Source: Numidum massiliense
Lineage (GTDB): Bacteria; Bacillota; Bacilli; Thermoactinomycetales; Novibacillaceae
NCBI RefSeq assembly: GCF_001375555.1
Contig: NZ_CTDZ01000009.1
Location: forward strand, 2,287,758 to 2,351,757
Direction: 5' to 3'
DNA: 64,000 nt
Under the pieces are notes generated by a model. It made no database searches, was not told where the DNA came from, and saw only the letters and a list, made by a program, of their open reading frames with translations. Positions within the stretch are counted from its first letter, which is position 1; every line of letters begins with the position of its first letter. Position numbers and translations under genes: made by a program. Below, in pieces: positions 1,784 through 25,923 of the stretch.

Positions 1784-2599
1784 ATGACGTACCGCAAAAA
1801 GACGCAACAGCATTACGACAATTTGACGAAAGGGTTGAAAAAAGTTGGCGAGGCGCTCCTTGCTGATCCGGCGCTCTTCGCGACCCACCCGGCCAAAACG
1901 GTAGCACGGGCTATCGATGTGAGTGAAACGATGGTGATCCGCTTTTGTCAGGCGATCGGCTTTAACGGTTACAGCGACTTGCAGAAAGACGTGCAGCGCG
2001 CCCTGCTCACCGTCAACCCGCCCGATCCCGATGCCGATGCCAATCGTGCAAACGAAACGCAAGCCACGAATCCATTCGCAGCAGTGATGGCAACCGATGA
2101 ACAAACGATTGAGCTAGCGGCCCGAACGATCGAGTGGTCGGTGGCGGAGGACATCGTGGAACAGCTCGTCGCTGCCAGCGCGGTCAGTGTCGTCGGCTAC
2201 TACCATTCATTCGCGTTTGCACACTGGTTTTCTTTCCTGCTCGGGCACTTGTTGGACAATGTCACGTTATACCGACCGGAAACAGACATCGGCATCACGA
2301 AAAAAGGCACGAACGACTGTGTCGCCTTGTTTTCGTATTACCGCTACGCTTTAGCGACGATTCGGCTTGCAGAGGAGGCAAAAGCGAACGGCCTTCAAGT
2401 CATCGTCATTACCGACACGCGGTTGTCGCCGATTGCCGACTACGCGGACTACATCTTGACGATCCAAACGTCCAAAAAATCCGTGCTAGAAAAAGGACCT
2501 GTCACATTTTCCGTGCTGAATGCGCTGCTGCTACACATTGCGCAAAAAGTGGGCAAACTCGAGTTCGTCAATCCGACGAACAAATATTTTATTCAGTGA
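1784..2599 (+). CDS. MurR/RpiR-family transcriptional regulator
   Basis: A 271-residue protein with the RpiR layout: an N-terminal helix-turn-helix (about residues 20-65, including the ARAIDVSETMVIRFCQ stretch) and a C-terminal SIS domain (about 115-245) that in this family binds a phosphosugar or related ligand. A GGGAG site precedes the ATG. It is first in an operon with an M20 hydrolase 14 nt downstream and a racemase, and is divergent from a carrier. I infer that it controls both transcripts. RpiR-type regulators are common beside cell-wall sugar or peptide recycling genes, so the ligand may be a metabolite of this pathway. Confidence 0.88.
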   Translation: MTYRKKTQQHYDNLTKGLKKVGEALLADPALFATHPAKTVARAIDVSETMVIRFCQAIGFNGYSDLQKDVQRALLTVNPPDPDADANRANETQATNPFAAVMATDEQTIELAARTIEWSVAEDIVEQLVAASAVSVVGYYHSFAFAHWFSFLLGHLLDNVTLYRPETDIGITKKGTNDCVALFSYYRYALATIRLAEEAKANGLQVIVITDTRLSPIADYADYILTIQTSKKSVLEKGPVTFSVLNALLLHIAQKVGKLEFVNPTNKYFIQ

Positions 2600-2613
2600 G
2601 AGGTGCTACTGAA

Positions 2614-3894
2614 GTGGCGTTAACGAACGAGAAAAGAATTTATGACACATTCGACTACTTACACACCCACGCGGAGTTGAGCTGGGAAGAGAAACATACG
2701 ACTGTTTATATTAAAAATTTGTTGGAGCAAGCAGGATGTCGCGTGCGCACCTTCGACGATTGCACCGGGGTAATCGGTGACATCGGTAACATCGGCAACA
2801 TGGCAAAGGGTGGAGGCGCCAGCACCAACAGCAGCACCACCTATAGCAGCACCGCCAATAGCAGCGCCACCAATAACAGCACCAGCGGCAGCGCCAGTAA
2901 TGGTGGTGCTAGCCCCGAGAGCGTAGGCACTGCGGCGAACGCCACGTCTCAAGCGCCGCTGATCGCTATTCGCGCCGACATAGACGCGCTGTGGCAAGAA
3001 GTGGACGGCAACATGCAAGCGAACCACTCGTGCGGCCACGACGCCCATATGACGATGGTGCTCGGCACGCTGTGGAAGTTACAACAAGAACCCGAAGTGC
3101 TAAACAAAGTCGGCGTGCGCTTCATTTTTCAACCGGCGGAAGAAGTCGGCACCGGCGCCTTAAAGCTCGCAGAAAAAGGTGTCGTCGACGATGTCGATTT
3201 TTTGTACGGCATTCACTTGCGGCCAGTGCAAGAAACGGCTAACGGTTTTGCTTCTCCGGCAATCGTCCACGGCGCCACCCATTCGCTCGAGTTTGAGATT
3301 CGCGGCGACGATGCGCACGGTGCCCGTCCACACTTGACGCACAATGCGATCGAAGTCGGGCATCACATTCTTAACGCGCTACAGACGATTCACTTAGACC
3401 CGCGCGTCCCGCACTCGATCAAAGTGACACGGTTCATAGCCGGTGGAAAAAACACGAACATCATCCCCGGAAAAGCGTCGCTCGCCATTGATATGCGCGC
3501 GCAGACGAACGAGCTAATGACGCAGTTGAAACAGCGCGCCAAGGACATTTTACGGCAGACGGAAGCACTGTTTGACACGGAAATCGTCGTTACCGAGGAT
3601 TATGGCATTGCCGCCGCAGAAGTGCACGAAGAGGCGCAAGCGATGGCGCAGCAAGCAATCGCCAATGCGCTCGGCGAGGAAAAGGTGATCGCCCCGATCA
3701 TTACCCCGGGCGGCGACGATTTCCACTTTTACACCTTGAAAAAGCCACATTTAAAAGCGACGATGGTCGGTCTAGGCTGTGATCTCAAACCGGGCTTGCA
3801 CCATCCGTACATGCACTTTGACCGCAAAGCGCTCTTCAACGGTATCGACGTTTTAACAGAAATCGTGAAATTACACGCACAGGAGGAGAAATAA
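2614..3894 (+). CDS. M20-family N-acyl amino acid amidohydrolase with low-complexity insert
   Basis: This metallo-amidohydrolase of the M20 (AbgB/HipO/ArgE-like) family should cleave an N-acyl or N-succinyl amide from an amino acid. Metal-site motifs are visible: ADIDAL, NHSCGHDAHM, a FQPAEE motif with the catalytic Glu pair, and HGARPH in the lid domain. The GTG at 2614 is chosen because AGAGGTG lies about 8 nt upstream; the open frame begins further left only as a shadow of rpiR. Residues about 56-113 are a Ser/Thr/Asn/Gly/Ala-rich insert where relatives have a short loop. The stop is 6 nt before the racemase start, so the pair is probably co-translated. In Geobacillus-type pathways the racemase works with an L-specific desuccinylase, which fits this gene. 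Confidence 0.87.
   Translation: MALTNEKRIYDTFDYLHTHAELSWEEKHTTVYIKNLLEQAGCRVRTFDDCTGVIGDIGNIGNMAKGGGASTNSSTTYSSTANSSATNNSTSGSASNGGASPESVGTAANATSQAPLIAIRADIDALWQEVDGNMQANHSCGHDAHMTMVLGTLWKLQQEPEVLNKVGVRFIFQPAEEVGTGALKLAEKGVVDDVDFLYGIHLRPVQETANGFASPAIVHGATHSLEFEIRGDDAHGARPHLTHNAIEVGHHILNALQTIHLDPRVPHSIKVTRFIAGGKNTNIIPGKASLAIDMRAQTNELMTQLKQRAKDILRQTEALFDTEIVVTEDYGIAAAEVHEEAQAMAQQAIANALGEEKVIAPIITPGGDDFHFYTLKKPHLKATMVGLGCDLKPGLHHPYMHFDRKALFNGIDVLTEIVKLHAQEEK
2803..2952 (+). repeat. AGC-ACC-rich in-frame repeat insert inside the M20 gene
   Basis: The stretch consists mainly of agc, acc, aac and gcc codons and encodes a Ser/Thr/Asn/Ala/Gly run. It lies between conserved strands of the catalytic domain without breaking the frame. 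It looks like expanded and then decayed simple-sequence DNA. Confidence 0.7.
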
Positions 3895-6674: not shown

Positions 6675-7868
6675 TCACACCCTCAAATTTTCCACAATGG
6701 TCGCAATGCCCATGCCGCCGGCGATGCAGAGCGTCACTAATCCGTACCGGCTGCCCGTTCGCTCGAGCTGATGGAGTAGCTTCGTCATGAGGATGGCGCC
6801 GGTTGCGCCGATTGGATGCCCCAACGCGATGGCGCCGCCGTTCGGGTTGACCTTCTCAATGTCGAGACCTAGCTCCCGGATGCAGGCGATGGCCTGCGAG
6901 GCGAATGCCTCATTCAATTCAATGACGTCGAGATCGTTCACTGTCAAACCAACTTGTCGCAACGCCTTTTGTGTCGCGCCGACCGGGCCCATGCCCATCG
7001 TTTCTGGGTCGCAACCAGATGCGGCCTGTGCAATGATTCGTGCCTTTGGCGACAAACCGTAGCGGTCGGCCGCTTGTTCGTTCATGACTAACAGTGCCGC
7101 GGCGCCATCGTTCCGGCCGCTCGCGTTGCCAGCGGTCACCGTACCGCCGGACTTGAAGACGGGCTTCAGATTCGCCAACTTCTCTAGGCTTGTCTCCCGC
7201 GGATGCTCGTCGACCTTGAAGTCGACCGTCTGTTTCCGATCCTGCACAGCGTACGGGGTGATCTCGTCCCCGAAGCGGCCTTCTCGAATGGCCGCGTGTG
7301 CCCGCTCCTGACTAAGCAAGGCAAATTCATCTTGCTCCTCGCGGGAAATCCCGTATTTCTCCGCGACATTTTCTGCGGTGATCCCCATCTGTAGGTGACC
7401 GTACTGTTCGACGGGCTGAGAGCCTGGCTGGCTTTCAGTGTTAGGGTCCTTTAGTATCGCGTTACCCGCTTTCACGCCAAACCGGACGCCACTTACATAG
7501 TACGGGGCTGTGCTCATCGATTCTGCGCCTCCCGCGATGATGACCTCACTTAGACCGATACCAATCTGCTGAGCGGCGTTGTTAACTGCCTGTACGCCGG
7601 AGCCACACTGACGGTGGACGGTATACGCCGGAATGCCGACGGGGAGACCTGCCCGCAACTGCGCGACGCGGGCGAGGTTTGACTCATCTGCACTCTGTTT
7701 CGCCTGGCCGAAGATGACTTCCTCAACGATGTTTTTCTCAATTCCTGTGCGGGCGATTAGTGCCTCAATGACGTGAGCCGCGAGGTAGTTCGCCTCGACG
7801 TTCGCTAACGCGCCGCCGAGCTTGCCGATCGCCGTTCGGACCGAGTCAACAATCACGGCGTTGTTCAT
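6675..7868 (-). CDS. pcaF: Beta-ketoadipyl-CoA / acetyl-CoA C-acyltransferase (thiolase)
   Basis: A 397-residue thiolase with all three catalytic elements: nucleophilic C88 (RQCGSG), H351 (GHPIGATG) and C381 (CIAGGMG). In this operon it most likely cleaves beta-ketoadipyl-CoA to succinyl-CoA plus acetyl-CoA, the last step of the beta-ketoadipate pathway. By sequence alone a general acetoacetyl-CoA thiolase cannot be excluded. AAAGGGG precedes the ATG, and the start overlaps the stop of the cycloisomerase gene as ATGA, indicating translational coupling. It is the last gene of the operon and is followed by a terminator. Confidence 0.85.
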   Translation of the reverse strand: MNNAVIVDSVRTAIGKLGGALANVEANYLAAHVIEALIARTGIEKNIVEEVIFGQAKQSADESNLARVAQLRAGLPVGIPAYTVHRQCGSGVQAVNNAAQQIGIGLSEVIIAGGAESMSTAPYYVSGVRFGVKAGNAILKDPNTESQPGSQPVEQYGHLQMGITAENVAEKYGISREEQDEFALLSQERAHAAIREGRFGDEITPYAVQDRKQTVDFKVDEHPRETSLEKLANLKPVFKSGGTVTAGNASGRNDGAAALLVMNEQAADRYGLSPKARIIAQAASGCDPETMGMGPVGATQKALRQVGLTVNDLDVIELNEAFASQAIACIRELGLDIEKVNPNGGAIALGHPIGATGAILMTKLLHQLERTGSRYGLVTLCIAGGMGIATIVENLRV

Positions 7869-8992
7869 GTGAGATCCCCTTTCTCCCTCGAGTAATGCTT
7901 CACTTTTTCACGGTCGATCTCCAAGCCGAAACCGGATCCATCCGGGATGACGACTTCAAAGTTCTCAAACCGAATGCCATCCACCGCGATCGAATCCTTG
8001 AATAGTAACGGTCCGAATAGTTCCGTGCCGAACTTGAATTCCGGAATAGTCGCGTACACAGAAGCGCACACGGCCGTGCCGAGGTCTGATTCGATCATCG
8101 TGCCTCCGTACAGGCCGAGCCCTGCGCCTTCTGCGATGGCGGCAGTCTGTTTCGTCGCCGTTAGGCCGCCCGCCTTGCATACTTTCAGTGCGATCGAATT
8201 GCCGGCTCGGTGCTTCGCAATGTGAAACACTTCCTGGATGGATGTCGCCCCTTCATCCGCCAAGATCGGTACGCGGTATCGTGCAGCAAGCCGAGCCATC
8301 CCTTCGTGGTTCCAAGCTGGGAGCGGCTGCTCGATCATCGAAATACCGCCTTCCTCAAGAGCCGGGATGCACGCATTCGCCGTATCTTCGTCCCACGCCT
8401 GGTTGATGTCGACCGTCAGCCGAGCCTTGTCGCCAACCGCTTGCTTGATCGCAAGCACATGCGCGACATTTTTCTTCGGATCCCCTATTCCGATCTTCAG
8501 TTTGAAGATGTTGTGCCGCTTCTGACGGAGGAATTCTTTCGCTTCTTCGATATCCTTGCCGGTATCACCGCTGGCGAGGGTCCACGCGACGGGAAGCGAA
8601 TCGTGGATCTTCCCGCCGAACAGTTCGTATGCCGGAATCGAGCGCTGCCTTGCGGCGAGGTCGACAACCGCTGACTCCACCAGCGCTTTAGCGAAGTGGT
8701 TGCCGCGCACTTGCTTCGCCACGTCGTTCATGATTTTGCCGAACCGGATCGGGTTCCGCCCGATGACGAGAGGTGCGATGTACCGGTCGATGTTCACCTT
8801 AATTGCTTCCGGCGTCGATTCCCCGTACGACGCCCCGCCAATTGTGGCGACTTCCGCCCATCCTTCGACGCCGTCCTCATCGCGGACGCAGGCGACTACG
8901 ATCGTCTGCTCAGTGATTGTATGCATCGCGAGCTGGTGCGGCCGAACGGTCGGAAGATCCAATATATAAACGTCAACCGAATGGATGTTCAA
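7865..8992 (-). CDS. catB: Muconate cycloisomerase (muconate lactonizing enzyme)
   Basis: A 375-residue enolase-superfamily enzyme of the MLE subgroup: KxK at 164/166 (FKLKIG), metal ligands D195 (VDINQAW), E221 (IEQPLP) and D246 (ADEG), and K270 (LKVCKAGG). The VDINQAW and ESDLGTA regions match cis,cis-muconate cycloisomerases and not the NSAR type at 3.9 kb. It should convert cis,cis-muconate to muconolactone. A TTG start at 8992 is chosen because AAAGGGG lies nine bases upstream; the longer frame from a TTG at 9025 has no ribosome site and would overlap the upstream gene. A racemase role is possible but the beta-ketoadipate neighbours argue against it. Confidence 0.82.
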   Translation of the reverse strand: MNIHSVDVYILDLPTVRPHQLAMHTITEQTIVVACVRDEDGVEGWAEVATIGGASYGESTPEAIKVNIDRYIAPLVIGRNPIRFGKIMNDVAKQVRGNHFAKALVESAVVDLAARQRSIPAYELFGGKIHDSLPVAWTLASGDTGKDIEEAKEFLRQKRHNIFKLKIGIGDPKKNVAHVLAIKQAVGDKARLTVDINQAWDEDTANACIPALEEGGISMIEQPLPAWNHEGMARLAARYRVPILADEGATSIQEVFHIAKHRAGNSIALKVCKAGGLTATKQTAAIAEGAGLGLYGGTMIESDLGTAVCASVYATIPEFKFGTELFGPLLFKDSIAVDGIRFENFEVVIPDGSGFGLEIDREKVKHYSREKGDLT

Positions 8993-9017
8993 TTCATCTA
9001 TCCCCTTTTGTCCCTTT

Positions 9018-9662
9018 TTATTCAATGAATGCCGCTGCCGTCTTCTTGCGGATTTCCTCGATCGTCGCGCCCGGCATGGGCTCGACGAGACGGAGCTGCC
9101 TATCTTCCGTCACTTCAAACACAGCGAGCTCCGTAAAGATCAGGTCGACACTGCGGGTGGAGGTGATCGGATACGTACATTCTTTAAGAAGCTTCGGCAA
9201 TCCGTCCTTCGAAGTGTGGCTCATCGTCACAAATACCTTTTTCGCCCCGACGAGCAAATCCATCGCACCGCCGACGCCCATAATATTCTTCCCAGGAACT
9301 GCCCAGTTCGCGATGACGCCGCGCGCGTCGACCTGTAGCGCTCCGAGAATGGCGACATCGACGTGGCCGCCGCGGATGATGGCAAACGACTCAGAACTGT
9401 TGAAGTAGGCGGCACCGACTGCCTCGCCGACCGGGAGCTTGCCCGCATTCACCAAGTTCGGGTCGATGTCCTCCTCTTTGACGTCGGTTACACCGAGCAG
9501 GCCATTTTCCGTATGCAAGTAGATGCTGTCATCATCTAAATACTGCGCAACGAGAGTCGGAATGCCAATTCCAAGGTTGACGGTAAGCGGGCCTTTCAGT
9601 TCTTTCGCCACCCGCTTCGCAATCATATGCTGCCCATCGCTTTTCGACAGGGACGCCTTCAT
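9018..9662 (-). CDS. pcaJ: 3-oxoadipate/3-oxoacid CoA-transferase subunit B
   Basis: A 214-residue class I CoA-transferase beta subunit with the ENGLLG motif whose Glu (near residue 52) forms the acyl-glutamyl intermediate, and NLGIGIPT near the N-terminus. With subunit A it moves CoA from succinyl-CoA to a 3-oxo acid. The neighbouring muconate genes point to beta-ketoadipate, although acetoacetate is the alternative in this family. Its ATG overlaps the stop codon of subunit A (ATGA), typical of paired subunits made in equal amounts. Confidence 0.87.
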   Translation of the reverse strand: MKASLSKSDGQHMIAKRVAKELKGPLTVNLGIGIPTLVAQYLDDDSIYLHTENGLLGVTDVKEEDIDPNLVNAGKLPVGEAVGAAYFNSSESFAIIRGGHVDVAILGALQVDARGVIANWAVPGKNIMGVGGAMDLLVGAKKVFVTMSHTSKDGLPKLLKECTYPITSTRSVDLIFTELAVFEVTEDRQLRLVEPMPGATIEEIRKKTAAAFIE

Positions 9663-10342
9663 ACGCTTACCACTCCTTCCTTCGTTAGCACCTGCTTCGC
9701 CTCAATGATCGTATCGACGAATAAATGCGGTGTGACGATTTCTTCCGGATCTAGTTCACCGGGATCGACGATCTCATCGACTTCGACGATGACCGTCTTT
9801 CCGGCCGTCGCCATGAGTGGATTGAAGTTCCGTGCCGTTTTGTAATAGACGAGGTTGCCGAGTGTATCCGCCTTATGTGCTCGGATGAGTGCCACATCAC
9901 CTCTTATGGCCTTCTCGAAGACGTACCGGACACCGTCAATCTCCCGCTCTTCCTTTCCTTCCGCTAGATCCGTTCCCACACCAGTCGTCGTGTAGTAACC
10001 GCCTAAGCCAGCACCGCCCGCTCGAATCGATTCTGCAAGCGTTCCCTGTGGCAGAAGCTCTAGCTCAATCTCGCCGCGCTGGTACTTGTCACCGACATCC
10101 CGGTTGCTCGTGAAATACGAGCCGATACCTTTTTTGATTTTGTTCTGGTTCAATAAAATTCCAAGCCCCTTGCCCGATTCACCGAGGTTGTTGCTAACGA
10201 TCGTCAGCCCGTCGACGTCCATCCTAGTTAGTTCATCAATCAAGGTGAGCGGCGCGCCGATCAGCCCAAAGCCGCCGACTAAAATTGTATCTCCAGATTT
10301 TACACAGGCAAGCGCTTCTGCTGCACTCTCTTTTCGTTTCAT
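9659..10342 (-). CDS. pcaI: 3-oxoadipate/3-oxoacid CoA-transferase subunit A
   Basis: A 227-residue class I CoA-transferase alpha subunit with the GGFGLIGAP CoA-binding motif near residues 23-31. It pairs with subunit B, which starts in the overlapping ATGA. It lies 7 nt downstream of the CMD-family gene within the same leftward operon. Its length is near that of subunit A of bacterial two-chain enzymes. Confidence 0.87.
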   Translation of the reverse strand: MKRKESAAEALACVKSGDTILVGGFGLIGAPLTLIDELTRMDVDGLTIVSNNLGESGKGLGILLNQNKIKKGIGSYFTSNRDVGDKYQRGEIELELLPQGTLAESIRAGGAGLGGYYTTTGVGTDLAEGKEEREIDGVRYVFEKAIRGDVALIRAHKADTLGNLVYYKTARNFNPLMATAGKTVIVEVDEIVDPGELDPEEIVTPHLFVDTIIEAKQVLTKEGVVSV

Positions 10343-10349
10343 CTTCCGA

Positions 10350-11090
10350 TCAGCCCCCGTTCTTCTGATCCACGGCAGCTAGTAGCGAATCACTTAGTTC
10401 AAACCATGTCGGGATGCCGGCAGTTAAGATGCAGATATAGCCGACATCCGCGAGGTCAGCTTCACTTGCTCCGGCTTCCCGGGCACGCTCGATCCACGGG
10501 ATAGCCCCTTTCCCGTCTAGCTCGACAACATGGTTCCCGACCATGTTTAGGAGCTTTAGGCGAGTCGGGACGAGACCATCCGATAACACTTTCTCTTCGA
10601 TGGCCTGTGAATCGCCGTTCTCCATAAGGTGAAGGACCTCTTTTAAATAGGAGGTGTCCTCGCCGTCGAGCCAAGTGATGACCTGGCGAAATAGTTCCAC
10701 CGCGTTAGCTCCGCTATCAGCCAGTTCCGGAACAGTCTTCCCATTTAACTCAAGCGCATAGCGGATGGCTTCCGTAGCCGTCTGCAGCGCACGGTTCCCT
10801 TTATAGAGGAAGGCTGTCAGGAAGAACTCCACGATTTCCGGCGCGGAGTAGCCGAAGTCGATCGCGCCTTTCGTATGGTACACCATACTACGGGCATATA
10901 GCCGCGCAGCGTTCATGCTCGCGATGAGGACATCCTTCTCCTTTCGAGACAGTGCCCCATCCTGCATAATCTCCCCACGGATTCCGGTGTACGTGTCTAG
11001 CACCGCCGGACTGTAGTCGTGCATCTTTTGCACCCAGCCCGGAACCACATCGTAGACTTTCCTAAAATATGTCAATGCGTCGCTCATCAT
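10350..11090 (-). CDS. Double-domain carboxymuconolactone decarboxylase (CMD) family protein
   Basis: A 246-residue alpha-helical protein with two CMD/AhpD-like halves (about 25-115 and 130-240). The first contains KEKDVLIASMNAARLYARSMVYHTKGA and the second AREAGASEADLADVGYICILTAGIP, each resembling the CMD core helices. The AhpD redox CxxC is absent, so peroxidase activity is unlikely. In this operon it sits where a muconolactone isomerase or carboxymuconolactone decarboxylase would be expected, and I infer that it acts on a lactone intermediate. GAGGAG lies five bases before the ATG at 11090; a GTG six bases further upstream is too close to that site. Confidence 0.7.
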   Translation of the reverse strand: MMSDALTYFRKVYDVVPGWVQKMHDYSPAVLDTYTGIRGEIMQDGALSRKEKDVLIASMNAARLYARSMVYHTKGAIDFGYSAPEIVEFFLTAFLYKGNRALQTATEAIRYALELNGKTVPELADSGANAVELFRQVITWLDGEDTSYLKEVLHLMENGDSQAIEEKVLSDGLVPTRLKLLNMVGNHVVELDGKGAIPWIERAREAGASEADLADVGYICILTAGIPTWFELSDSLLAAVDQKNGG

Positions 11091-11108
11091 TTCCACTCCT
11101 CACCAGTT

Positions 11109-12794
11109 TTATTTAAGTGCATCCGGGTATTCGTACTGATTGATGCCGAATACGAACGGAAGAATGAAGTAAACGAAGGCCAAAATTAGGACGAACGAAA
11201 GGATCGTTAGCCATGTTCCTTTTTTTAGCATGTCGATCATCGTGATCTTTCCAGTTGCGAAGACAATGGCGTTGGACGGCGTTCCGATCGGCAACATGAA
11301 TGCAAACCCCGCGCTCATTGCAATAGCCGTCATAACTGGCAGCGGGTGAACGTCGATAGCAAGCGCAAGAGACGCTCCAATCGGAAGTAAAATCGTGACG
11401 GTCGCCGTGTTCGGTGCTAGTTGGGTCATGGCGATGGCCAGCAATGCCGGAATCGCGAGAATCATTACATACGAAGCACCGTCAAGCAGCAGAAGCTGAT
11501 TGCCAATCCAGCTCGCAAGGTCTGTTCCGTTGAAACCCGCAGCAAGCGCCAAGCCGCCGCCGACGAGAAGCAGGACACCCCACGGCATATTCTTCAGTGA
11601 ATCTGCTCCGAGGATACGGCCGCTGTTTTCCTTCGAAGCCGGAATAGCATGCAGTAGGACGATACTCACCATCGCGATCATCGTATCGCTAAGCCCCGGG
11701 ATGAGATCAGTCCAGATAAATGTCCGCGTCAGCCACATGAAAGCTGTAAATAGAAAGACTGAGAGAACCACTTTCTCTTCATACGACATTTTGCCGAGCT
11801 CTTTCTTGCGCTCAATCACGAACTCGCGGCCATTGGCAATCTTCTTGACCTTCATCGGATAAGCGATTTTGGTAATATAGACCACTCCAAACAGCATGAG
11901 CAGCACTATAAGGGGAAAGGCGAATGCAAAAAAGGTGGCAAACGAGATGTCGATGCCGAGCAACTCTTTCGACAGCCCAGCGAGCACTAGGTTCGTCGGC
12001 GTCCCGATCAACGTGGCACTGCCACCGATCGTTGCACCAAATCCAATGGCGAAGATGATCGCTTTTGTGAACTTCGTCTCTTCCTCTTCGGAATGAACGC
12101 CATCTTCCTTCATTAATGTAACGACCTTCGCAATGATGGCCGTCCCAATCGGTAGTATGAGCATGACCGTCGCCATATTTGAGACCCACATTGAGATAAA
12201 GCCTGTCGCAAGCATGAATCCCAGCACTAGACCAGATGTACTCGTTCCGACCGCTCCAATGATGGAGAGGGCGATCCGTTCATGCAGATTCCACTTTTCC
12301 AGTGCAAGGGCGATTGCAAATCCTCCGATAAATAGGAAGATGAGCGAGTCCCCGTAGGCGGATGCTGCCGTTCCGCCGTCAACTGCTCCCATCATCGGCA
12401 GCAGGATTAGCGGCATCAGCGATGTAATACCGAGCGGAATCGCTTCCGTGATCCACCAGACTGCAATCCAGGCAGTAATCGCTAGGACGGCCCGTCCCTC
12501 ATCACTGAGTCCGGGGAGCGTCAAGAAGGACAAGATGCCGAAGAACAGCAGCGGACCTAAGATAAGGCCCACGATCTGGGTTAGACTGTACGCATCTCGC
12601 TGATCATTATCCCGGCTGTTCCCCGTCTTTTCTTCCCCCATTTTCCCATAAAATGCCTTGTCCTTCGGTAGCTCTGCTGTCGCTTGTCCTGCAGCGTTAA
12701 ATTCACTACGAAGGGTGGCAAATGTTACGACATCTTTCGTATGTTGGTGCGAGTTCCACATTTTCCGGCTAAGTGCGCGTAACGGATTTCCCAT
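11109..12794 (-). CDS. DASS (SLC13) family anion/dicarboxylate transporter
   Basis: A 561-residue protein with a polar N-terminal tail of about 70 residues followed by about eleven hydrophobic segments. DASS family signatures are visible as two substrate/sodium-site motifs (ATLIGTPTNLVLAG and LPIGTPSNAIVFATG) and APNTATVTILLPIG. Members cotransport sodium with di- or tricarboxylates at the cytoplasmic membrane. Located between an alpha/beta hydrolase and a CMD protein in the muconate operon, it probably imports an aromatic-catabolism dicarboxylate such as muconate or beta-ketoadipate. A GGGGGG run lies nine bases before the ATG. Confidence 0.83.
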   Translation of the reverse strand: MGNPLRALSRKMWNSHQHTKDVVTFATLRSEFNAAGQATAELPKDKAFYGKMGEEKTGNSRDNDQRDAYSLTQIVGLILGPLLFFGILSFLTLPGLSDEGRAVLAITAWIAVWWITEAIPLGITSLMPLILLPMMGAVDGGTAASAYGDSLIFLFIGGFAIALALEKWNLHERIALSIIGAVGTSTSGLVLGFMLATGFISMWVSNMATVMLILPIGTAIIAKVVTLMKEDGVHSEEEETKFTKAIIFAIGFGATIGGSATLIGTPTNLVLAGLSKELLGIDISFATFFAFAFPLIVLLMLFGVVYITKIAYPMKVKKIANGREFVIERKKELGKMSYEEKVVLSVFLFTAFMWLTRTFIWTDLIPGLSDTMIAMVSIVLLHAIPASKENSGRILGADSLKNMPWGVLLLVGGGLALAAGFNGTDLASWIGNQLLLLDGASYVMILAIPALLAIAMTQLAPNTATVTILLPIGASLALAIDVHPLPVMTAIAMSAGFAFMLPIGTPSNAIVFATGKITMIDMLKKGTWLTILSFVLILAFVYFILPFVFGINQYEYPDALK

Positions 12795-12824
12795 AAGATA
12801 TTTCCCCCCGTTCTCTTCATTCGT

Positions 12825-13664
12825 TTAATTTTCGATTTCCCCCAAAAACTCCTCGATCGCCTCTGCCACTTCTGTCCGCTCTTCAAAAACAAGCGTGTAG
12901 TGATTAGCGTCCGTTTCGATCACCTTAAGGTTGCGGATGACGGCTTTCGTCTTGTCGTAGTGCGCCATGAGGAACAGTGGTGGCATTGGTCCGATCGCAC
13001 CGGACGCGTAAACGAGGAGCACCGGACAATCAATCTTCGTGCCCACCTCTTCTGGCTGGAATGAACGGAAGCTGTCGAAATCAGCACGGATCCCGGCTTC
13101 GTCGGATTTATGCACCCAAAGCCCGTTCTTTTCTTCGACTTCGTAGGCCGCCGTTTCAGCCAGCTCATCGGACCAGGTGATGCCCAAGTTCTCATAGATT
13201 TTCTGGATTTCCGATACGTACTTTTCCTTGGATTCGTAAGTACGGCTGATCCGCCCTAGTGAAGGTTCTACAATGGCACGCTGGTGGTCGGACGTTTCGG
13301 CAGCCCCGTCGAGAAGCACTACCCCCTTTACGAAATTCAGGCGGCTTGCCACAATCGCTGAGATAAATGCCCCCATCGAATAGCCGACGAGAATCGGGCT
13401 ATCGATCTTCAGTTCCTTAATCAGACCGATGATGTCATCTGCATGCTTGAAGATTGATGGCTCGGGATCGAGCGCACTGCTGTTGCCGCGCCCGCGGAGG
13501 TCGACGGCAATGATGCGGTAATCGCCCTTGAACCGCTCGATTAGGTAGTGCAAATTCCGGTAATTGCCCGTCAGTCCGTGGATGACAATGATCGCTTCCT
13601 TCACACCTGGATAATCCGCTACTTGAATGTCGTTTCCGTCCACAGTCACTTTATAAAATTCCAT
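12825..13664 (-). CDS. Alpha/beta hydrolase, likely enol-lactone hydrolase
   Basis: A 279-residue alpha/beta hydrolase: HGLTG oxyanion loop, DLRGRG, nucleophile elbow GYSMG, and a C-terminal catalytic His in ANHYT. It is the first gene of the muconate operon, so a beta-ketoadipate enol-lactone hydrolase (PcaD-type) role is the natural inference; general esterase is the fallback. The ATG at 13664 is preferred because GAGGAGGG stands seven bases before it; the 12 upstream codons contain that ribosome site. The IclR operator candidate at 13704 is within its leader. Confidence 0.75.
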   Translation of the reverse strand: MEFYKVTVDGNDIQVADYPGVKEAIIVIHGLTGNYRNLHYLIERFKGDYRIIAVDLRGRGNSSALDPEPSIFKHADDIIGLIKELKIDSPILVGYSMGAFISAIVASRLNFVKGVVLLDGAAETSDHQRAIVEPSLGRISRTYESKEKYVSEIQKIYENLGITWSDELAETAAYEVEEKNGLWVHKSDEAGIRADFDSFRSFQPEEVGTKIDCPVLLVYASGAIGPMPPLFLMAHYDKTKAVIRNLKVIETDANHYTLVFEERTEVAEAIEEFLGEIEN

Positions 13665-13703
13665 CTTTTTACCCTCCTCTACGGTACATAAATCGTACAA
13701 TCA

Positions 13704-15758: not shown

Positions 15759-16022
15759 CTAAAGCATACCGTAGCAAAGTGATTGTAGGAGAAAGACCAC
15801 ACCTGCCCCAATCGCCATACCCTTAACGAGATCGGTCTTTCCCTTAAGTTTAGCCACGATTATGAGCGGGATGATATAAATTAATTGGATCACCCCTATA
15901 AGCAGGATGAATTGTATAAAATATCCCAAACCTATAGATAGAGTAAGAGCCAAAAAATTGCACCCAAATACAATGGCACAACCAGACCAACCGTCACCTG
16001 TTTCACGGTTTTCTTCCTCCAT
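15759..16022 (-). CDS. Small hypothetical membrane protein
   Basis: An 87-residue protein with an acidic N-terminus (EEENRE) and three hydrophobic stretches (about 15-35, 38-58 and 68-85). GGGGAG lies seven bases before the ATG at 16022, favouring it over a GTG five codons upstream. I do not recognise the family. The stop is a TAG followed by an open extension in the same frame. Confidence 0.5.
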   Translation of the reverse strand: MEEENRETGDGWSGCAIVFGCNFLALTLSIGLGYFIQFILLIGVIQLIYIIPLIIVAKLKGKTDLVKGMAIGAGVVFLLQSLCYGML

Positions 16023-16099: not shown

Positions 16100-17506
16100 C
16101 TACGTCATCGGCACCATTTCTTCGCGCAACTGCTGAAGCAACGTCTCGCGCCCGTCGCGGTAAAACATGTTGTACGTATCGAACGGGATAATGCGTCCGT
16201 CGGGATGCACGATATGCACACACGATTTTTTCACCGAGCGGACGTCAAAATTGTACGGATCGAGAAACTGCATAATGATAACGCGAAACACATTGTCATA
16301 CGCAATCGACTCCGGTACTTGCACCGGCGGCAAACAACACAACAGATTTTTTAGAGACAGCGCGGACGATTCCGGCGAATGACTCGTGGAAAAGAGTGAA
16401 AAAATGTGTTCCTTTAACGTCTCGTCCTGCTCGTACACGATTGTATTTCCCGAGCCCGCTAATAACACATCGGGATCGATCAGCCCAGTTAACGGCACCA
16501 CTTGTTCTCCTACCTTAAGCGCATACCCCATGGCCAAACAGTCGGGATGACACGGCACGGGAATGATATCTTCTTGGCGGAATACACCCGATTGCGCAAT
16601 AATGTGTTCCCTTACTTCACTCAACGTGAGGCGATCAACTGCCGGGTCAAACTGTTCCAGCCTCCCCGCCGCTTGAATCGGCTGAAAGGTAACGCCACGT
16701 ACCGCGCGCTGCTTTAACCCATACTGAATCATACGCCCAATCTCATTGTCGTTTAACCCTTTTTTCAAAGTGACAACTAATGTTGTGGAAATATTAAACT
16801 CGTTCAAGTGTTGCATTGCTTGCTCGCGTATGTTGCGGAGGTCGGCACCGCGAAGCTCTTTGAGCGCTTCCGCTTCGAAGCTGTCAAACTGCAAATAAAT
16901 TTCAAACCCCGGCATGTACGAAGCTAGCCTGCGCACAAAATCCCGATCCTTAGCGATACGCAATCCGTTCGTGTTTACCATGATGTGCTTAATCGGTCGC
17001 GCTTTCGCCGCGTCGAGAATAGCAAAAAAGTCCGGGTGGATGGTCGGTTCGCCACCGGAAATTTGGACGATGTCCGGCTCGCCTTCGTTGCGGACGACCG
17101 CGTCGAGCATCGCCTCAATGTGCGCCAAGCTGCGAAACGTCTGCCGCTGAGGAGAGGATTCCGCATAGCAAATCGGACACTTCAAATTGCACGCTTCCGT
17201 CACTTCGACGAGCGCAAGACAACTATGCTGCTCGTGATCCGGACACAAGCCGCAGTCGTACGGACACCCGTAGCGGATCGGTATATTGAAGTGGCGGGGC
17301 ATCGAGGACGGTTTTAAGTAGGCGCGGCACATTTTGTAATATGCGGCATCACTCGCGATTAGCACCCGTTCCGCCCCGTGCTGCGGACAACGCTTGATCA
17401 TGTACATTTTACCGTCCTGTTCGACAATTTTCCCTTCGACCTTACGGTAGCAAGTGGAGCAAATGCTGTTCGTTAATTCATAAAAAATGTATGGCCGTTC
17501 AGACAT
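16100..17506 (-). CDS. Tes/MJ0619-like radical SAM protein
   Basis: A 468-residue radical SAM enzyme. A zinc-ribbon-like N-terminus (C16, C19, C40) precedes a Cys-rich stretch (C81, C85, C88, C96), then the radical SAM CxxxCxxC at C106, C110 and C113 (ACNLKCPIC), SAM-binding SGGEPT, and a C-terminal part with LCCLPP, FRVIIMQF and KKSCVHI. This layout matches the family containing archaeal MJ0619 and the tetraether lipid synthase Tes, which couples lipid tails, and not the SPASM or MoaA types. The start overlaps 8 bp with the upstream Lgt-like gene, so the two are co-translated. I infer lipid modification; the substrate is unknown. Confidence 0.82.
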   Translation of the reverse strand: MSERPYIFYELTNSICSTCYRKVEGKIVEQDGKMYMIKRCPQHGAERVLIASDAAYYKMCRAYLKPSSMPRHFNIPIRYGCPYDCGLCPDHEQHSCLALVEVTEACNLKCPICYAESSPQRQTFRSLAHIEAMLDAVVRNEGEPDIVQISGGEPTIHPDFFAILDAAKARPIKHIMVNTNGLRIAKDRDFVRRLASYMPGFEIYLQFDSFEAEALKELRGADLRNIREQAMQHLNEFNISTTLVVTLKKGLNDNEIGRMIQYGLKQRAVRGVTFQPIQAAGRLEQFDPAVDRLTLSEVREHIIAQSGVFRQEDIIPVPCHPDCLAMGYALKVGEQVVPLTGLIDPDVLLAGSGNTIVYEQDETLKEHIFSLFSTSHSPESSALSLKNLLCCLPPVQVPESIAYDNVFRVIIMQFLDPYNFDVRSVKKSCVHIVHPDGRIIPFDTYNMFYRDGRETLLQQLREEMVPMT

Positions 17507-18284
17507 GTCCAGTCAATCTCCTCTCGCTTGTCATTTTTTTAAGTAACCGGATGAGGCGCGGCAAGTGGCGGGTGTAATATAGGATCCCTAGCACACAAGC
17601 GACTTGAATCGCCCCCAACCCGATATACGGACGCGGGTACGGTTTAATAAAGTCAACGCCTAACCGGAAGGCGAAATACGTAACCATAAACAGCTTAAAA
17701 ATGTCCCCTTCTCGATGCAGGACTCGTTTGATAAACGAGAGCATAATTCCTAACGCGAGTAAAAACAGTAGCTCATACAACTGTGTCGGATGCCGCAATA
17801 CACCGTCCCCGAAGTCGATCCCCCAAGGCAAAGCGGTAGCAATGCCGTACGTGTTGTCCTCCAACCCGGTCAAAAAACAACCGATCCTCCCCACAGCCAT
17901 CCCGAATATAAGCGGTAACGTTAAATCGTCGCCTGTTGAAGCGGTGTGCCCGACCATTTTCTTCGCCAGCTCCACCCCGATTAAACCGCCGAGTAATCCT
18001 CCGACAATACTCTTCCCTTCCATCCAAAATATCGGCTCGTCAAGTGGCTTAGCAATATGTGCCCATAAGACAGACGGGTCGTACAGCCATGCGAGTATTT
18101 TTGACCCAAACGCCGCCCCCACGATTGCGCCGGCGATGACCGACCATTGAACGGTGCGCGACAACCTCTCTGGTCGACGGAACCATAGGTACAAACGAAA
18201 ACCGAGAAAATAAGCAAGCGCCTCCATCACAAAATGAGGATGGAGCCTTACCGGACCGAGCTCGATCCATACCGGAAACTGCAT
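17499..18284 (-). CDS. Divergent Lgt-family (prolipoprotein diacylglyceryl transferase-like) membrane protein
   Basis: A 261-residue protein of about seven transmembrane helices. GRIGCF (132-137) aligns with the Lgt signature GRxGNFxNGE, and RHPTQLYE (164-171) with the conserved Lgt motif. The Asn of GNF is Cys, the following NGE is TGL, and the HGG motif is VGG (94-96), so residues important in true Lgt are missing. It is therefore unlikely to lipidate prolipoproteins in the normal way. It lies upstream of and overlaps a Tes-like radical SAM gene, suggesting a joint lipid reaction. AAGGAGG lies six bases before the ATG at 18284. Confidence 0.8.
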   Translation of the reverse strand: MQFPVWIELGPVRLHPHFVMEALAYFLGFRLYLWFRRPERLSRTVQWSVIAGAIVGAAFGSKILAWLYDPSVLWAHIAKPLDEPIFWMEGKSIVGGLLGGLIGVELAKKMVGHTASTGDDLTLPLIFGMAVGRIGCFLTGLEDNTYGIATALPWGIDFGDGVLRHPTQLYELLFLLALGIMLSFIKRVLHREGDIFKLFMVTYFAFRLGVDFIKPYPRPYIGLGAIQVACVLGILYYTRHLPRLIRLLKKMTSERRLTGHV

Positions 18285-18310
18285 CACTAACCTCCTTCCA
18301 ATCGTCGTCA

Positions 18311-18346
18311 CGTGTCGTTTCACGTGTCGTTTTACGTGTCGTTTCT
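18311..18346. repeat. Three 12-bp tandem repeats (cgtgtcgttt core)
   Basis: Units at 18311, 18323 and 18335 share cgtgtcgttt and differ in the last two bases. They lie just upstream of the Lgt-like gene, in its leader. Confidence 0.75.
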
Positions 18347-22778: not shown

Positions 22779-23290
22779 TCCTCTCACCCCACCAAATCGT
22801 TCGCCTTTGCTCATTCTAGCTGCCTGTTTTCATTCCACGTCCTACAGTTACTCTCTCCACTAACCGGATACATGTTTATCCGTTCTACTGAGACGTTCGT
22901 TTGAGACGTTCGTTTTTTTACCGATTCCTACACGCTTACATTTCTCCTTCGGACTATACAAAGCCTGCTTGATTTGCGATTTTCACGTTACCGCTTTCAA
23001 CAGCAGTGAATAGTTAACCCTATGACCCATTGACTACAATCATGATAAGCATACCACGCGCCGGATATTTCCGCCACTATTTAGTGAGAAATGAATAAAC
23101 CCTTAACAAATATGTAACACGGGGCAACGATACATAAAAATAGTGCAAAATGGAAAAACCAACAACTGTGTGTCCTAAAGTTAGTCGTGTTAATTTTTCC
23201 CGGTATGGCGAGATGGCTAGGTGCGCTGATTCGTTTATATTGTGCACATAAATATACAGCTTGTAACATACATCGAAAGAAGTGATTTAC
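22779..23290. other. Long divergent intergenic region
   Basis: About 510 bp without a supported gene between the oxidoreductases and the germination operon. It contains a 13-bp direct tandem repeat (gagacgttcgttt at 22890 and 22903). The promoters of both flanking operons should be here. Forespore sigma-G elements are expected for the germination genes but I could not place them with confidence. Confidence 0.4.
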
Positions 23291-24385
23291 ATGACACCTA
23301 GCTCGCATAAAATTAGCGTTTTTCTTTCCTTTATGGTCATCGTCTTAGCGACCGGGTTGATGAATCACGTAACCATCTTACCCCCTTTAATCGGTACAGC
23401 GAAACGGGACGCCTGGTTGAGCGTCGTCCTTACGATTGTCCCTATGCTGTTATGGATCGGGCTGCTTAGTTACATCATAAAGAATATCCATCCAGAACCG
23501 CTTTTCTCTTGGTTAAAAGCCCACTTTGGAATAGGCGTGACGTTAGCCGTCAAGATGTTCATGTTTATTTATTTAACGAGCATCGTACTTCTTACGTTAA
23601 AAGATACGACAGGATGGACGAAAGTATTTTACCTACCGCAAACACCGGTCATCGTGATCGCTGCGTCCTTTACAGCTGTCTGTCTGTTCGCCGCCATCTC
23701 CGGTATGCGTACGATCGGCATAACTGCAGGGATTTTATTACCTGTTGTCATCATTTTCGGTGATTTTGTCATGTCAGCCAACCTCCCGGAAAAAAACTAC
23801 ACATTGCTTTTACCCCTCTTCGAGCACGGTTGGAATCCGGTGCTAAGTGGTCTCGTCTACGTCGGAGGAGGCATCGCAGAACTGATTATCATTCTTCAGC
23901 TACAGCAATACGTGCGGAGGAGGATTCGTTTTATCCCCTTACTGTTACTCGGTCTTTTTTTACTACTACTCATTTTCGGTACGTTGACTGGAGCGATCGC
24001 TGCCTTCGGACCCGATGAAGTTGCCAAGCAACGATACCCCGCGTATGAACAATGGCGCTTGGTGACGATCGGGAAATACATCCGCCACGTTGACTTTTTG
24101 TCTATCTATCAATGGCTCTCCGGGGCGCTTATTCGCATTGCAGCAGCCATGTTTTTACTCGCTGACTGCCTGAGTCTCACGAAGCGCTACCGGACCATCT
24201 TTCTTTTGTCTTTCAGTATCGCGATCGTTTTCTTCGTCCAATTGCCGATCGGCGATGCCAGTATGCTCAATTTTCTTAACCGCTTTTACTTCCCGCTTTC
24301 CCTCGCTTCCGTCGCTGTACTCACGCTTGCATTATTTTTGCTTGTGCTTATGGCTAAAAGGAGGAAAAAAGGATCGTGCGCATAA
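23291..24385 (+). CDS. Spore germination receptor permease subunit (GerAB/GerB type)
   Basis: A 364-residue protein with ten hydrophobic helices typical of the GerAB endospore permease family (APC superfamily fold), which binds the germinant in the inner spore membrane. The start ATG at 23291 is preceded by AGAAGTGA. It is first in a three-gene operon whose order is permease, GerA, GerC, differing from the usual A-B-C order. Its 3-prime end overlaps the GerA start by 10 nt. Confidence 0.87.
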   Translation: MTPSSHKISVFLSFMVIVLATGLMNHVTILPPLIGTAKRDAWLSVVLTIVPMLLWIGLLSYIIKNIHPEPLFSWLKAHFGIGVTLAVKMFMFIYLTSIVLLTLKDTTGWTKVFYLPQTPVIVIAASFTAVCLFAAISGMRTIGITAGILLPVVIIFGDFVMSANLPEKNYTLLLPLFEHGWNPVLSGLVYVGGGIAELIIILQLQQYVRRRIRFIPLLLLGLFLLLLIFGTLTGAIAAFGPDEVAKQRYPAYEQWRLVTIGKYIRHVDFLSIYQWLSGALIRIAAAMFLLADCLSLTKRYRTIFLLSFSIAIVFFVQLPIGDASMLNFLNRFYFPLSLASVAVLTLALFLLVLMAKRRKKGSCA

Positions 24386-25923
24386 CCCCCTTTCGTTACT
24401 TACAAAATTTTTTCCGTCAACTAACAGCGACCGAACAACCTGATCAGACGATTGAGGAAGGGGCGGGAACAGAAAAAATTACCGAGCAACATTTACGGGA
24501 GACATTTGCCGATAGCGCAGATGTACACGTACAAAAATATCGGTTCGGGAGTGAAAAAAATGAACAGCCTATTTTACTTTTGTTCTGCGAAGGTATGACT
24601 GATACGAAACAAATTAACGAGATCGTCCTCCCGCGACTGGAACAAATGATCGCACGTGGTTTTCTCCCAAGTGGTGACAAACCGCCGGAGGAAAAAACGT
24701 TGGCACTAGAAAAGATGGAAGACAAACCGCTATTAACTAAAGTGATTACAACGGTGTATGCAGGAGAGCTCGTTATTTTCTTCCCGAATGATAGTGATCT
24801 GTACTCTGTCGATATCGCCGATCCACCGCGCCGCACGCCGAGTGAATCGAATACGGAATTATCCATCAAAGGTCCCCGCGACGCCTTTACAGAAGAACTG
24901 ACGACGAATGTCGCCTTAATCCGCAAACGCCTGGCGACAAATTCTCTTTGCCACGAGCAATTCACGGTCGGGAGGAGAAGTCAAACAAAAGTATCCCTTC
25001 TGTATATACGCGACATCATTAACCCGGAAATTGTCGAGGAAGCACGTACAAGAATAAACAAAGTTGACATTGACGCCTTACACGGAAGCCCACAGCTAGA
25101 AGAAATAATCGCCGACTCGACATACTCCCTATTCCCGTTGTTAGATTACATTGGACGGCCTGATTTCGTCGTCCACTCTTTAGTGAGCGGTCGTTTTGCC
25201 ATTTTAGTCAACGGTTCACCGATGGCTGTCATTGCACCTGCAAATTTTACGTTACTGCTCAAGTCGCCCGAAGACTTGTATAAGCCTTTTTACTTCGTTT
25301 CACTTGAGCGGTTCCTTCGCTTGATCGGTTTTTTAGTAGCAATATTTTTACCCGGATTTTGGGTCGCTTTGACGACCTTCAATGTAGATCAACTTCCTTT
25401 TCCCTTACTAGCTACAGTTACTTTGTCGCGAATCGGCATACCGGTATCTGTTCCCCTCGAGGCCTTTTTGCTACTTGGACTGTTCGAATTGTTCCGTGAA
25501 GCAGGGGAACGGTTACCCAAAGCAGTCGGAGGAATCGTCGCTGTTGTCGGTGGTTTAATTGTAGGCGAAATGCTCGTTCGCGCTGGCCTCGCCTCTTCGA
25601 CTCACCTCGTCATGGCTGCGCAGACAGCTGTCGCTACGTTTGCGTTAGTCAACCACTCGTTAAGTGGGACGGTAAGTGTCTTGCGCATCTTCGTCTTAAT
25701 CTGCGCAACCTTTCTAGGTATGTTCGGCTTTTTTATCGCCTCCTTTGCGATCGTCATTCATATGGCCCGGCTCGAGTCGTTTAAAGTCCCTTATTTAGCA
25801 ACGCTCGCCCCCCTTCAGTTCAAAGAGCTGTTTGCCTCCTTGTTTAAATTGCCTTGGAAAGACATGACACATCGCCCTAAAAGCTTATCGATTCAAGATA
25901 ACACACGACGGAAGGACGAATGA
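24376..25923 (+). CDS. Spore germination receptor GerA-type subunit
   Basis: A 515-residue protein with the GerA layout: a large soluble N-terminal domain (about 1-300) and five or six C-terminal transmembrane helices (from about residue 310, FLRLIGFLVAIFLPGFWVAL onward). The conserved GerA stretch LPFPLLATVTLSRIGIPVSVPLEAFLL is present. It starts with GTG inside the end of the permease gene and AAGGAGG lies upstream. It assembles with the permease and the lipoprotein into a germinant receptor, expressed in the forespore. Confidence 0.9.
   Translation: MRITPFRYLQNFFRQLTATEQPDQTIEEGAGTEKITEQHLRETFADSADVHVQKYRFGSEKNEQPILLLFCEGMTDTKQINEIVLPRLEQMIARGFLPSGDKPPEEKTLALEKMEDKPLLTKVITTVYAGELVIFFPNDSDLYSVDIADPPRRTPSESNTELSIKGPRDAFTEELTTNVALIRKRLATNSLCHEQFTVGRRSQTKVSLLYIRDIINPEIVEEARTRINKVDIDALHGSPQLEEIIADSTYSLFPLLDYIGRPDFVVHSLVSGRFAILVNGSPMAVIAPANFTLLLKSPEDLYKPFYFVSLERFLRLIGFLVAIFLPGFWVALTTFNVDQLPFPLLATVTLSRIGIPVSVPLEAFLLLGLFELFREAGERLPKAVGGIVAVVGGLIVGEMLVRAGLASSTHLVMAAQTAVATFALVNHSLSGTVSVLRIFVLICATFLGMFGFFIASFAIVIHMARLESFKVPYLATLAPLQFKELFASLFKLPWKDMTHRPKSLSIQDNTRRKDE

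Follow-up and report, generated by a model that had tools for sequence, protein, structure and literature searches.

What does a bacterium with a true prolipoprotein diacylglyceryl transferase (Lgt) do with a second, altered Lgt-like gene that runs into the gene of a radical S-adenosylmethionine (SAM) enzyme resembling tetraether synthase (Tes)? The question is raised by a 64,000-nucleotide stretch of the Numidum massiliense genome (contig NZ_CTDZ01000009.1, positions 2,287,758 to 2,351,757), referred to here as the window. An initial annotation, made from the letters alone, described two minus-strand genes overlapping by 8 bp and proposed that they form a lipid-modification pair. The overlap is confirmed, the pair is real and conserved, and its radical SAM protein is Tes-like. 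It is not a two-gene system, as the annotation had it, since a third gene, encoding a small membrane protein, had been overlooked. The Lgt-like transferase, the Tes-like radical SAM enzyme, and the small membrane protein form a three-part module, based on co-inheritance, the folds of the enzymes, and a conserved cysteine in a signal-like helix. We see about an even chance that the Lgt-like enzyme lipidates this cysteine and that the Tes-like enzyme works on lipid tails.

Lgt is a textbook enzyme, and the Lgt-like protein passes the cut-off of the Pfam LGT model (PF01790) with 8.1e-26 and 91.2 bits against 24.9. It falls below all six NCBIfam lgt models listed, for instance with 46.9 against 118.9 (TIGR00544) and 59.5 against 334 (NF000778). 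Its best solved relative is Escherichia coli Lgt (5azb, 6.3e-8). A structure model built from a 43-sequence alignment (pLDDT 91.2) has the Lgt membrane fold, based on Foldseek, where 5azb was the sole PDB match with E <= 0.001 (3.8e-8), and on VIA, where E. coli Lgt gave Z 13.4 (root mean square deviation 5.2 over 240 residues) and the next match 7.7. The gene is a paralog of a separate, true lgt within the same genome (C9:3414754-3415572; 244 bits, versus 91 for the window gene), whose absence the annotation had named as refuting its proposal. That true lgt adjoins an hprK-like gene, recognized by eye only.

To compare residues, we used a profile alignment to 5azb and the numbering and mutants of Mao et al. 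(PMC4728403); here and below, statements from papers with PMC identifiers refer to excerpts of their text. The lipid-pocket residues of E. coli Lgt (5azb/5azc) are kept and invariant among the paralogs: R143, E202, Y235, and R239 appear as R146, E184, Y216, and R220, so that catalytic R143 and R239 are both present. R246 is K227. The motifs named in the annotation are as it read them, with RHPTQLYE, with GRIGCF carrying Cys for the Asn of GNF, and with VGG for HGG. In residue terms, H103 is replaced by V107, N146 by C149, Y26 by H30, and Y30 by E34, each at least 97% conserved in the paralogs; for C149 and V107, conservation across 74 paralog sequences places the replacements above chance. H103 of E. 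coli Lgt was proposed to bind the acceptor peptide (PMC4728403). Since the lipid-pocket residues are kept and H103 is changed, the donor side is preserved and the acceptor side altered, fitting a new acceptor.

The Lgt-like and radical SAM genes are inherited together. A fixed sample of 245 genomes, the family of G164 within the window's class, has the radical SAM gene in 38 genomes and the Lgt-like gene in the same 38, on the same contig and adjacent. The window-type small protein is found in 22 of the 245, all among these 38, and in none of the other 207 at E 1e-5. The 16 module genomes without it (genera g48, g30, and g47) presumably carry a zinc-binding variant of the small protein, judging from Paenibacillus and Saccharibacillus loci. 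Among 61 genomes around the window, five including the window's own have the family, with the Lgt-like gene adjacent each time; a sixth match reaches 43 bits. Strong radical SAM matches occur in 8 of 194 cyanobacterial genomes, 7 of which also have a strong Lgt-like match. A ninth match (G685, 217 bits) groups outside the clade, and matches in G651 and G661 are weak. The family thus has a patchy occurrence and is gained or lost as a unit.

Conservation of the pair, the lack of which the annotation would have taken as refutation, also extends to other phyla. A scan of genome contigs returned at least 574 radical SAM relatives, and we kept the best 80 loci (64-82% identical). By record title they come from Bacilli, Cyanobacteria, Verrucomicrobia, Acidobacteria, and Planctomycetes, with single bins from Bacteroidetes and Actinomycetota; this count of at least five phyla includes several metagenome bins whose labels are possibly wrong. 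The fetched stretch contains an Lgt-like gene in 77 of the 80 loci; it lies further off in L065, L072, L077, L079, and L080, and L088 has a partial downstream match. The three exceptions are L074, L087, and L090, whose genomes each have an Lgt scoring as a paralog at another place (106, 101, and 61 bits, respectively, the third close to the end of a contig). Of the 40 genomes searched, every one has an Lgt with a paralog-type score (61-112 bits). A strong Lgt (at least 159 bits) accompanies it in 39, and G374 has the paralog only. In 68 same-strand pairs, the two genes overlap in 43, lie 0-100 bp apart in 19, and lie further apart in 6, counted from the first possible start codon, by which overlaps may be overcounted. 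The distance matrices of the two enzymes correlate across 69 loci (r 0.84, with 0 of 1000 permutations as high), a value not corrected for species history, which alone could also yield it.

Clustering of open reading frames (ORFs) from 85 loci recovered the radical SAM gene in 78 of them and the Lgt-like gene in 73. The small protein followed with 47 loci, and the next cluster, ABC ATPases, with 19. The remaining clusters examined in these loci were common families or opposite-strand shadow ORFs, apart from a B-box variant of the small partner. An ABC permease between both genes in L072 is a single case.

Co-inheritance bears directly on whether the Lgt-like gene could be an ordinary second Lgt for normal lipoproteins, with the radical SAM gene as a chance neighbor. 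Several Lgts do occur in some genomes and the Pfam cut-off is passed, but occurrence of both genes in the same 38 genomes contradicts this explanation, as do the Val and Cys at H103 and N146 and the scores below the NCBIfam lgt cut-offs. We regard it as very improbable.

The radical SAM protein is a relative of Tes. The annotation ascribed to it the layout of "MJ0619 and tetraether synthase"; the Tes-type layout holds, and the two names denote one protein, MJ0619 being tetraether synthase and its earlier pterin assignment judged incorrect (Lloyd et al., PMC9433317). In Pfam, the window protein matches Radical_SAM (8.9e-23) and PF23545, the N-terminal zinc ribbon of the HMPTM family (1.4e-17), and its best solved relative is Tes (7tol, 1.4e-65). 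A model built from 32 sequences (pLDDT 79, poor at residues 84-92 and 352-398) has the Tes fold, based on Foldseek (1.6e-35) and on VIA against 7tom (Z 40.5, root mean square deviation 2.7 over 401 residues). MoaA is next at 19.1, and SuiB and SkfB are second-tier matches at 17.9-18.6; families absent from the VIA matches are not counted as excluded. The protein passes none of the pterin or peptide-maturase cut-offs among the 25 NCBIfam models shown. Grouping by fold with Tes (7tom/7tol) and not with pterin- or peptide-modifying families agrees with the annotation. None of the three findings that it had named as refuting was therefore made.

Likeness to Tes (GDGT-MAS) extends to the metal sites, with Tes ligand positions taken from PMC9433317. 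The rubredoxin-like site C16-X2-C19-X20-C40-X2-H43 has spacing identical to C9-C12-C33-H36 of Tes, the N-terminal cluster C81-X3-C85-X2-C88 has that of C73-C77-C80, and the SAM cluster CX3CX2C is present as C106-C110-C113. Unlike Tes, the window enzyme has an altered C-terminal cluster domain, with Cys at C319, C323, C390, C391, and C429, Ser428 and Asp443 where other displayed relatives (bar one gapped row) have Cys, and Ile at Tyr459. The Cys390-Cys391 pair is found only in this clade and in L109 among displayed relatives. The enzyme is 31% identical to Tes, scores 288.6 against a cut-off of 450 in the NCBIfam Tes equivalog, and is encoded beside an Lgt-like gene.

The best-scoring NCBIfam model is that of the radical SAM (seleno)protein TrsS (NF045646), at 326 bits against a cut-off of 490. 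TrsS, of which Haft and Tolstoy 2025 is reportedly the source, has the same N-terminal ligands. Its sequences, with one below-cut-off relative, form their own clade (support 1.0), and none of 17 above-cut-off TrsS matches has an Lgt-like gene within the fetched flanks. We rejected membership in TrsS based on the cut-off and the tree. In the same tree, the module clade together with L109 has support 1.0, the clade without L109 has 0.55, and the placement of Tes among the rest has 0.1. We also rejected a role in anti-phage defense, to which the sole pointer was a viperin-type similarity of the radical SAM domain.

L109 looks like an intermediate because its radical SAM protein holds both C-terminal Cys sets. 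Its Lgt-like neighbor is 33% identical to the window protein, and it fits the module, with the order small protein, radical SAM, Lgt-like and a small-protein tail of ...ILTVVLCF. Its genome, G243, belongs to another class of the phylum and carries three Tes-like genes: L109 and a tandem pair, L115/L117. The tandem follows an ORF that looks SDR-like by eye and a protein weakly resembling FabA (21.6 bits, cut-off 23), a setting that may point to an operon for building fatty acids. Around G243, a class-level search covering 10 genomes found no new relatives. A further radical SAM homolog, 41% identical, is found on a Mycolicibacterium vanbaalenii plasmid (L180) beside a methyltransferase, a second radical SAM gene, CcdA, and a disulfide oxidoreductase; an Lgt-like gene was found there neither by annotation nor by profile.

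Searches with the third component, the small membrane protein, gave nothing in Pfam up to E 10 or in NCBIfam up to E 0.1. A canonical lipobox, [LVI][ASTVI][GAS]C, stands at the end of an N-terminal signal peptide; the window protein lacks it, and instead has ...LLQSLC near its C terminus, the conserved Cys being followed by 4 residues. Small ORFs clustering with it lie directly after the radical SAM gene in the 47 loci noted above (Bacilli and cyanobacteria by title). In an alignment of 30 tails (A1), the only invariant columns are one Leu and one Cys, the Cys in all 30. More broadly, an adjoining small ORF with a C-terminal membrane helix is present in 77 of 84 loci, 75 of these ORFs having Cys in the last 24 residues, compared with 10 of the 52 small membrane ORFs found at other places in these loci; the 84 include two pairs with the same tails shown twice (L005/L031 and L006/L037), and the match in L085 was judged spurious. 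A stricter signature (K/R, 12-24 uncharged residues, Cys, short tail) adjoins the module in 65 of 82 loci; the identical procedure applied to other genes of at least 200 aa in these loci gave it in 17 of 336 places. Counted by frames, it occurs in 71 of 312 beside the module versus 17 of 1044 in the control.

The distribution of charges suggests a topology. All 54 hand-listed small proteins have K/R before the last helix (146 K/R in all), and after the Cys there are 12 K/R and 1 D/E in 444 residues, with a median tail of 8 residues. This placement predicts an in-to-out helix with the Cys outside, as in a lipoprotein signal. The shared element, a charged stretch, about 15 hydrophobic residues, and a Cys at the predicted outer face, is by its sequence a lipoprotein-signal shape at the C-terminal end. 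Unlike in prolipoproteins with an N-terminal lipobox, the element is C-terminal in most loci and only 2-15 residues follow the Cys; the usual cleavage before the Cys would therefore leave almost nothing.

The rest of the small protein varies. The N-terminal parts are proline-rich, B-box zinc, or zinc-ribbon-like, and tandem copies occur in L046, L067, L068, and L073, as expected of substrates. Three-helix forms are found in Bacilli and cyanobacteria, and also in L149, L150, L151, and L155. In the Paenibacillus and Saccharibacillus loci L045, L047, L053-L057, and L059-L062, the three-helix partner is replaced by a B-box-like zinc domain with a single C-terminal-Cys helix; this variant sits directly before the Lgt-like gene (example tail ..LLLTICGAILFSY). 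A few cyanobacterial loci have a mini-lipoprotein as the small protein. A mini-prolipoprotein precedes the module in L152, L153, and L154 (..VGWFATQAC-FPILRPP.. in L154), and in L065 lipobox-like proteins are interleaved with both enzymes; these four loci are the only ones with N-terminal lipobox-like versions, which have ASEAC, ATQAC, SMAC, or GWAC before the tail. By hand we added, besides the lipobox-like proteins of L065, partners in L042 (further away) and L077 (...LFLLPLCGR, between both enzymes). Five loci read later fit as well: L109, L152-L154, and a Bacteroidota plasmid locus (L179) with the Cys tail ...YFVIGTGICGSLLS. L077, from a Planctomycete-side bin, has several small membrane ORFs between the enzymes (1940-3882), with an N-terminal L-x-Y-R motif seen by eye.

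The A1 tail profile, run on 11 genomes, found one strong copy in 10 (E 2.9e-8 or better), beside the module where checked. G376 had a chance-level match only, and there were a few weaker matches (E 0.001 to 1). A Nostoc genome (G379) has a second copy (L168 1324-1638, 1.8e-6), whose contig is not that of the module and in which Tyr replaces the Cys. We rejected a genome-wide C-terminal sorting signal with many substrates, at the sensitivity of A1, because 10 of the 11 genomes have a single strong copy.

Two other explanations give the small protein a different role. In the first, the small protein itself is the substrate of the radical SAM enzyme, which might for example form a carbon-sulfur bond at the Cys, and the Lgt-like protein anchors or exports the product. 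A small variable gene with a conserved Cys beside a radical SAM gene would suit this, as would the second-tier likeness to SuiB and SkfB, but the Z score for Tes lies far above theirs, the predicted topology places the Cys at the outer face of the membrane, and no peptide-maturase cut-off is passed. We consider this explanation improbable. In the second, the product of the two enzymes is a modified membrane lipid that stays free, such as a tail-coupled or alkylated phospholipid; the Lgt-like protein would be a lipid-presenting platform and the small protein a structural subunit, its Cys being structural or a metal or disulfide ligand. The substrates of Tes itself are free lipids, and the enzyme produced in E. 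coli carries phospholipids of that host (PMC9433317), membrane-spanning lipids have been proposed as the product of bacterial Tes homologs (PMC8941075), and the Lgt-like protein keeps the lipid-side residues of Lgt and not H103 and N146. Against it stand the very free variation of the N-terminal part, the tandem copies, and the replacement by a mini-lipoprotein, with charged stretch, helix, and Cys kept throughout; none of this would be expected of a structural subunit. This explanation is the strongest of the alternatives, and we still think it unlikely.

In the reading we prefer, lipidation of the small protein, the Lgt-like enzyme would move a diacylglyceryl-type group from a phospholipid to the thiol of the C-terminal Cys. 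The product would be an S-glyceryl lipid anchor on an in-to-out helix, with the Cys at the outer end as in a prolipoprotein. C149 in the active site could take part, as nucleophile or in a disulfide. The radical SAM enzyme, by its fold, would take acyl tails from the membrane into a tunnel and, at the cytoplasmic face, abstract a hydrogen from a lipid tail and couple or otherwise alter the tail, either after transfer or before it, on free phospholipid. No other gene is conserved beside the module, as would fit substrates that all cells contain (phospholipid and SAM). That the Cys is the acceptor, which lipid is used, what the radical reaction is, and in which order the steps run are our inferences; transfer and action on lipid tails are, as in the annotation, deduced from the enzyme families. 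The annotation went further in naming C-C coupling or alkylation. Coupling as in Tes would be one candidate reaction, because the C-terminal cluster domain differs. A more specific version, in which the small protein is lipidated at its C-terminal signal-like helix and the Tes-like enzyme couples the bound acyl tail to a second lipid tail, tying the protein covalently into both halves of the bilayer, is a tentative suggestion that we believe to be rather doubtful.

Several points weigh against lipidation of the small protein. H103, at which no tested mutant complements in E. coli (PMC4728403), and N146 are Val and Cys, so transfer itself is not assured, and a role of C149 as nucleophile or disulfide partner could count here as well. 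Two Cys of the Tes C-terminal domain are replaced, by Ser428 (Ala in L066) and Asp443. The Cys of the small protein lies within a hydrophobic helix with only 2-15 residues after it, unlike in a mature lipoprotein. The tail signature was defined after most loci had been seen and also matches the 17 control places, and many loci are close relatives. No small partner was seen in L063, L066, L083, L084, and L085, nor in the short stretch of L148; at the small-protein position, the contig of L090 runs out and the sequence of L080 is partly masked. The cyanobacterial genome G639 has the radical SAM gene and no Lgt-like match at the threshold, with 13 of 23 candidates scored. Finally, the module has no known lipid product.

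In the excerpts of PMC8941075, PMC9433317, and PMC11868695, bacterial Tes homologs are without confirmed function. A segment of about 3,500 bp with radical SAM and prolipoprotein diacylglyceryl transferase genes has been described in Pseudarthrobacter, present in three of four single-cell genomes and missing in one, with no function proposed in the excerpt (PMC12010503). This segment, the one printed mention of such a gene pair that we found, may be the same pair, which would then be mobile and also present in Actinomycetota. In our literature search, outside of which Haft and Tolstoy 2025 fell, neither a functional account of the pair nor any reference to the small protein turned up. The folds of the parts are known ones, and what may be new is the complete system. 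There are numerous bacterial Tes homologs, and through the module one conserved clade among them is connected with a paralog of a lipid transferase and with a candidate acceptor. It is found in soil bacteria and cyanobacteria, many of them in culture, and the substrate question is therefore directly testable on one small protein. If the lipidation reading is true, C-terminal lipidation and radical chemistry would be added to bacterial lipoprotein biology; if a protein-bound tail is coupled to a second lipid tail, this would be a previously undescribed route of protein lipidation.

The layout of the locus is given in Table 1. The likely start of the Lgt-like gene is the ATG, which is preceded by AAGGAGG, within a full ORF of 17499-18323. 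The small-protein gene is co-directional with the radical SAM gene and starts 77 bp (from the ATG, preceded by GGGGAG) or 62 bp (from the GTG) past its stop. A scan for promoters and terminators found nothing beyond the level of shuffled sequence.

Table 1. Features of the three-gene module, with positions in the window.
Feature	Position	Strand	Details
Lgt-like membrane protein gene	17499..18284	minus	261 aa from ATG 18284; ORF open to GTG 18323
Tes-type radical SAM gene	16100..17506	minus	468 aa
Overlap of Lgt-like stop and radical SAM start	17499..17506	minus	8 bp
Small membrane protein gene	15759..16022	minus	87 aa from ATG 16022; ORF open to GTG 16037
Ribosome-binding region of Lgt-like gene	18285..18299	minus	GGAAGGAGGT, read directly from the sequence

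Elsewhere in the window, a minus-strand run at 7865-13700 encodes a mandelate racemase/muconate lactonizing enzyme, a CoA transferase, a carboxymuconolactone decarboxylase, and an alpha/beta hydrolase, and is probably a catabolic cluster. At 23282-25923 there are spore germination genes, with matches to Spore_permease and GerA.

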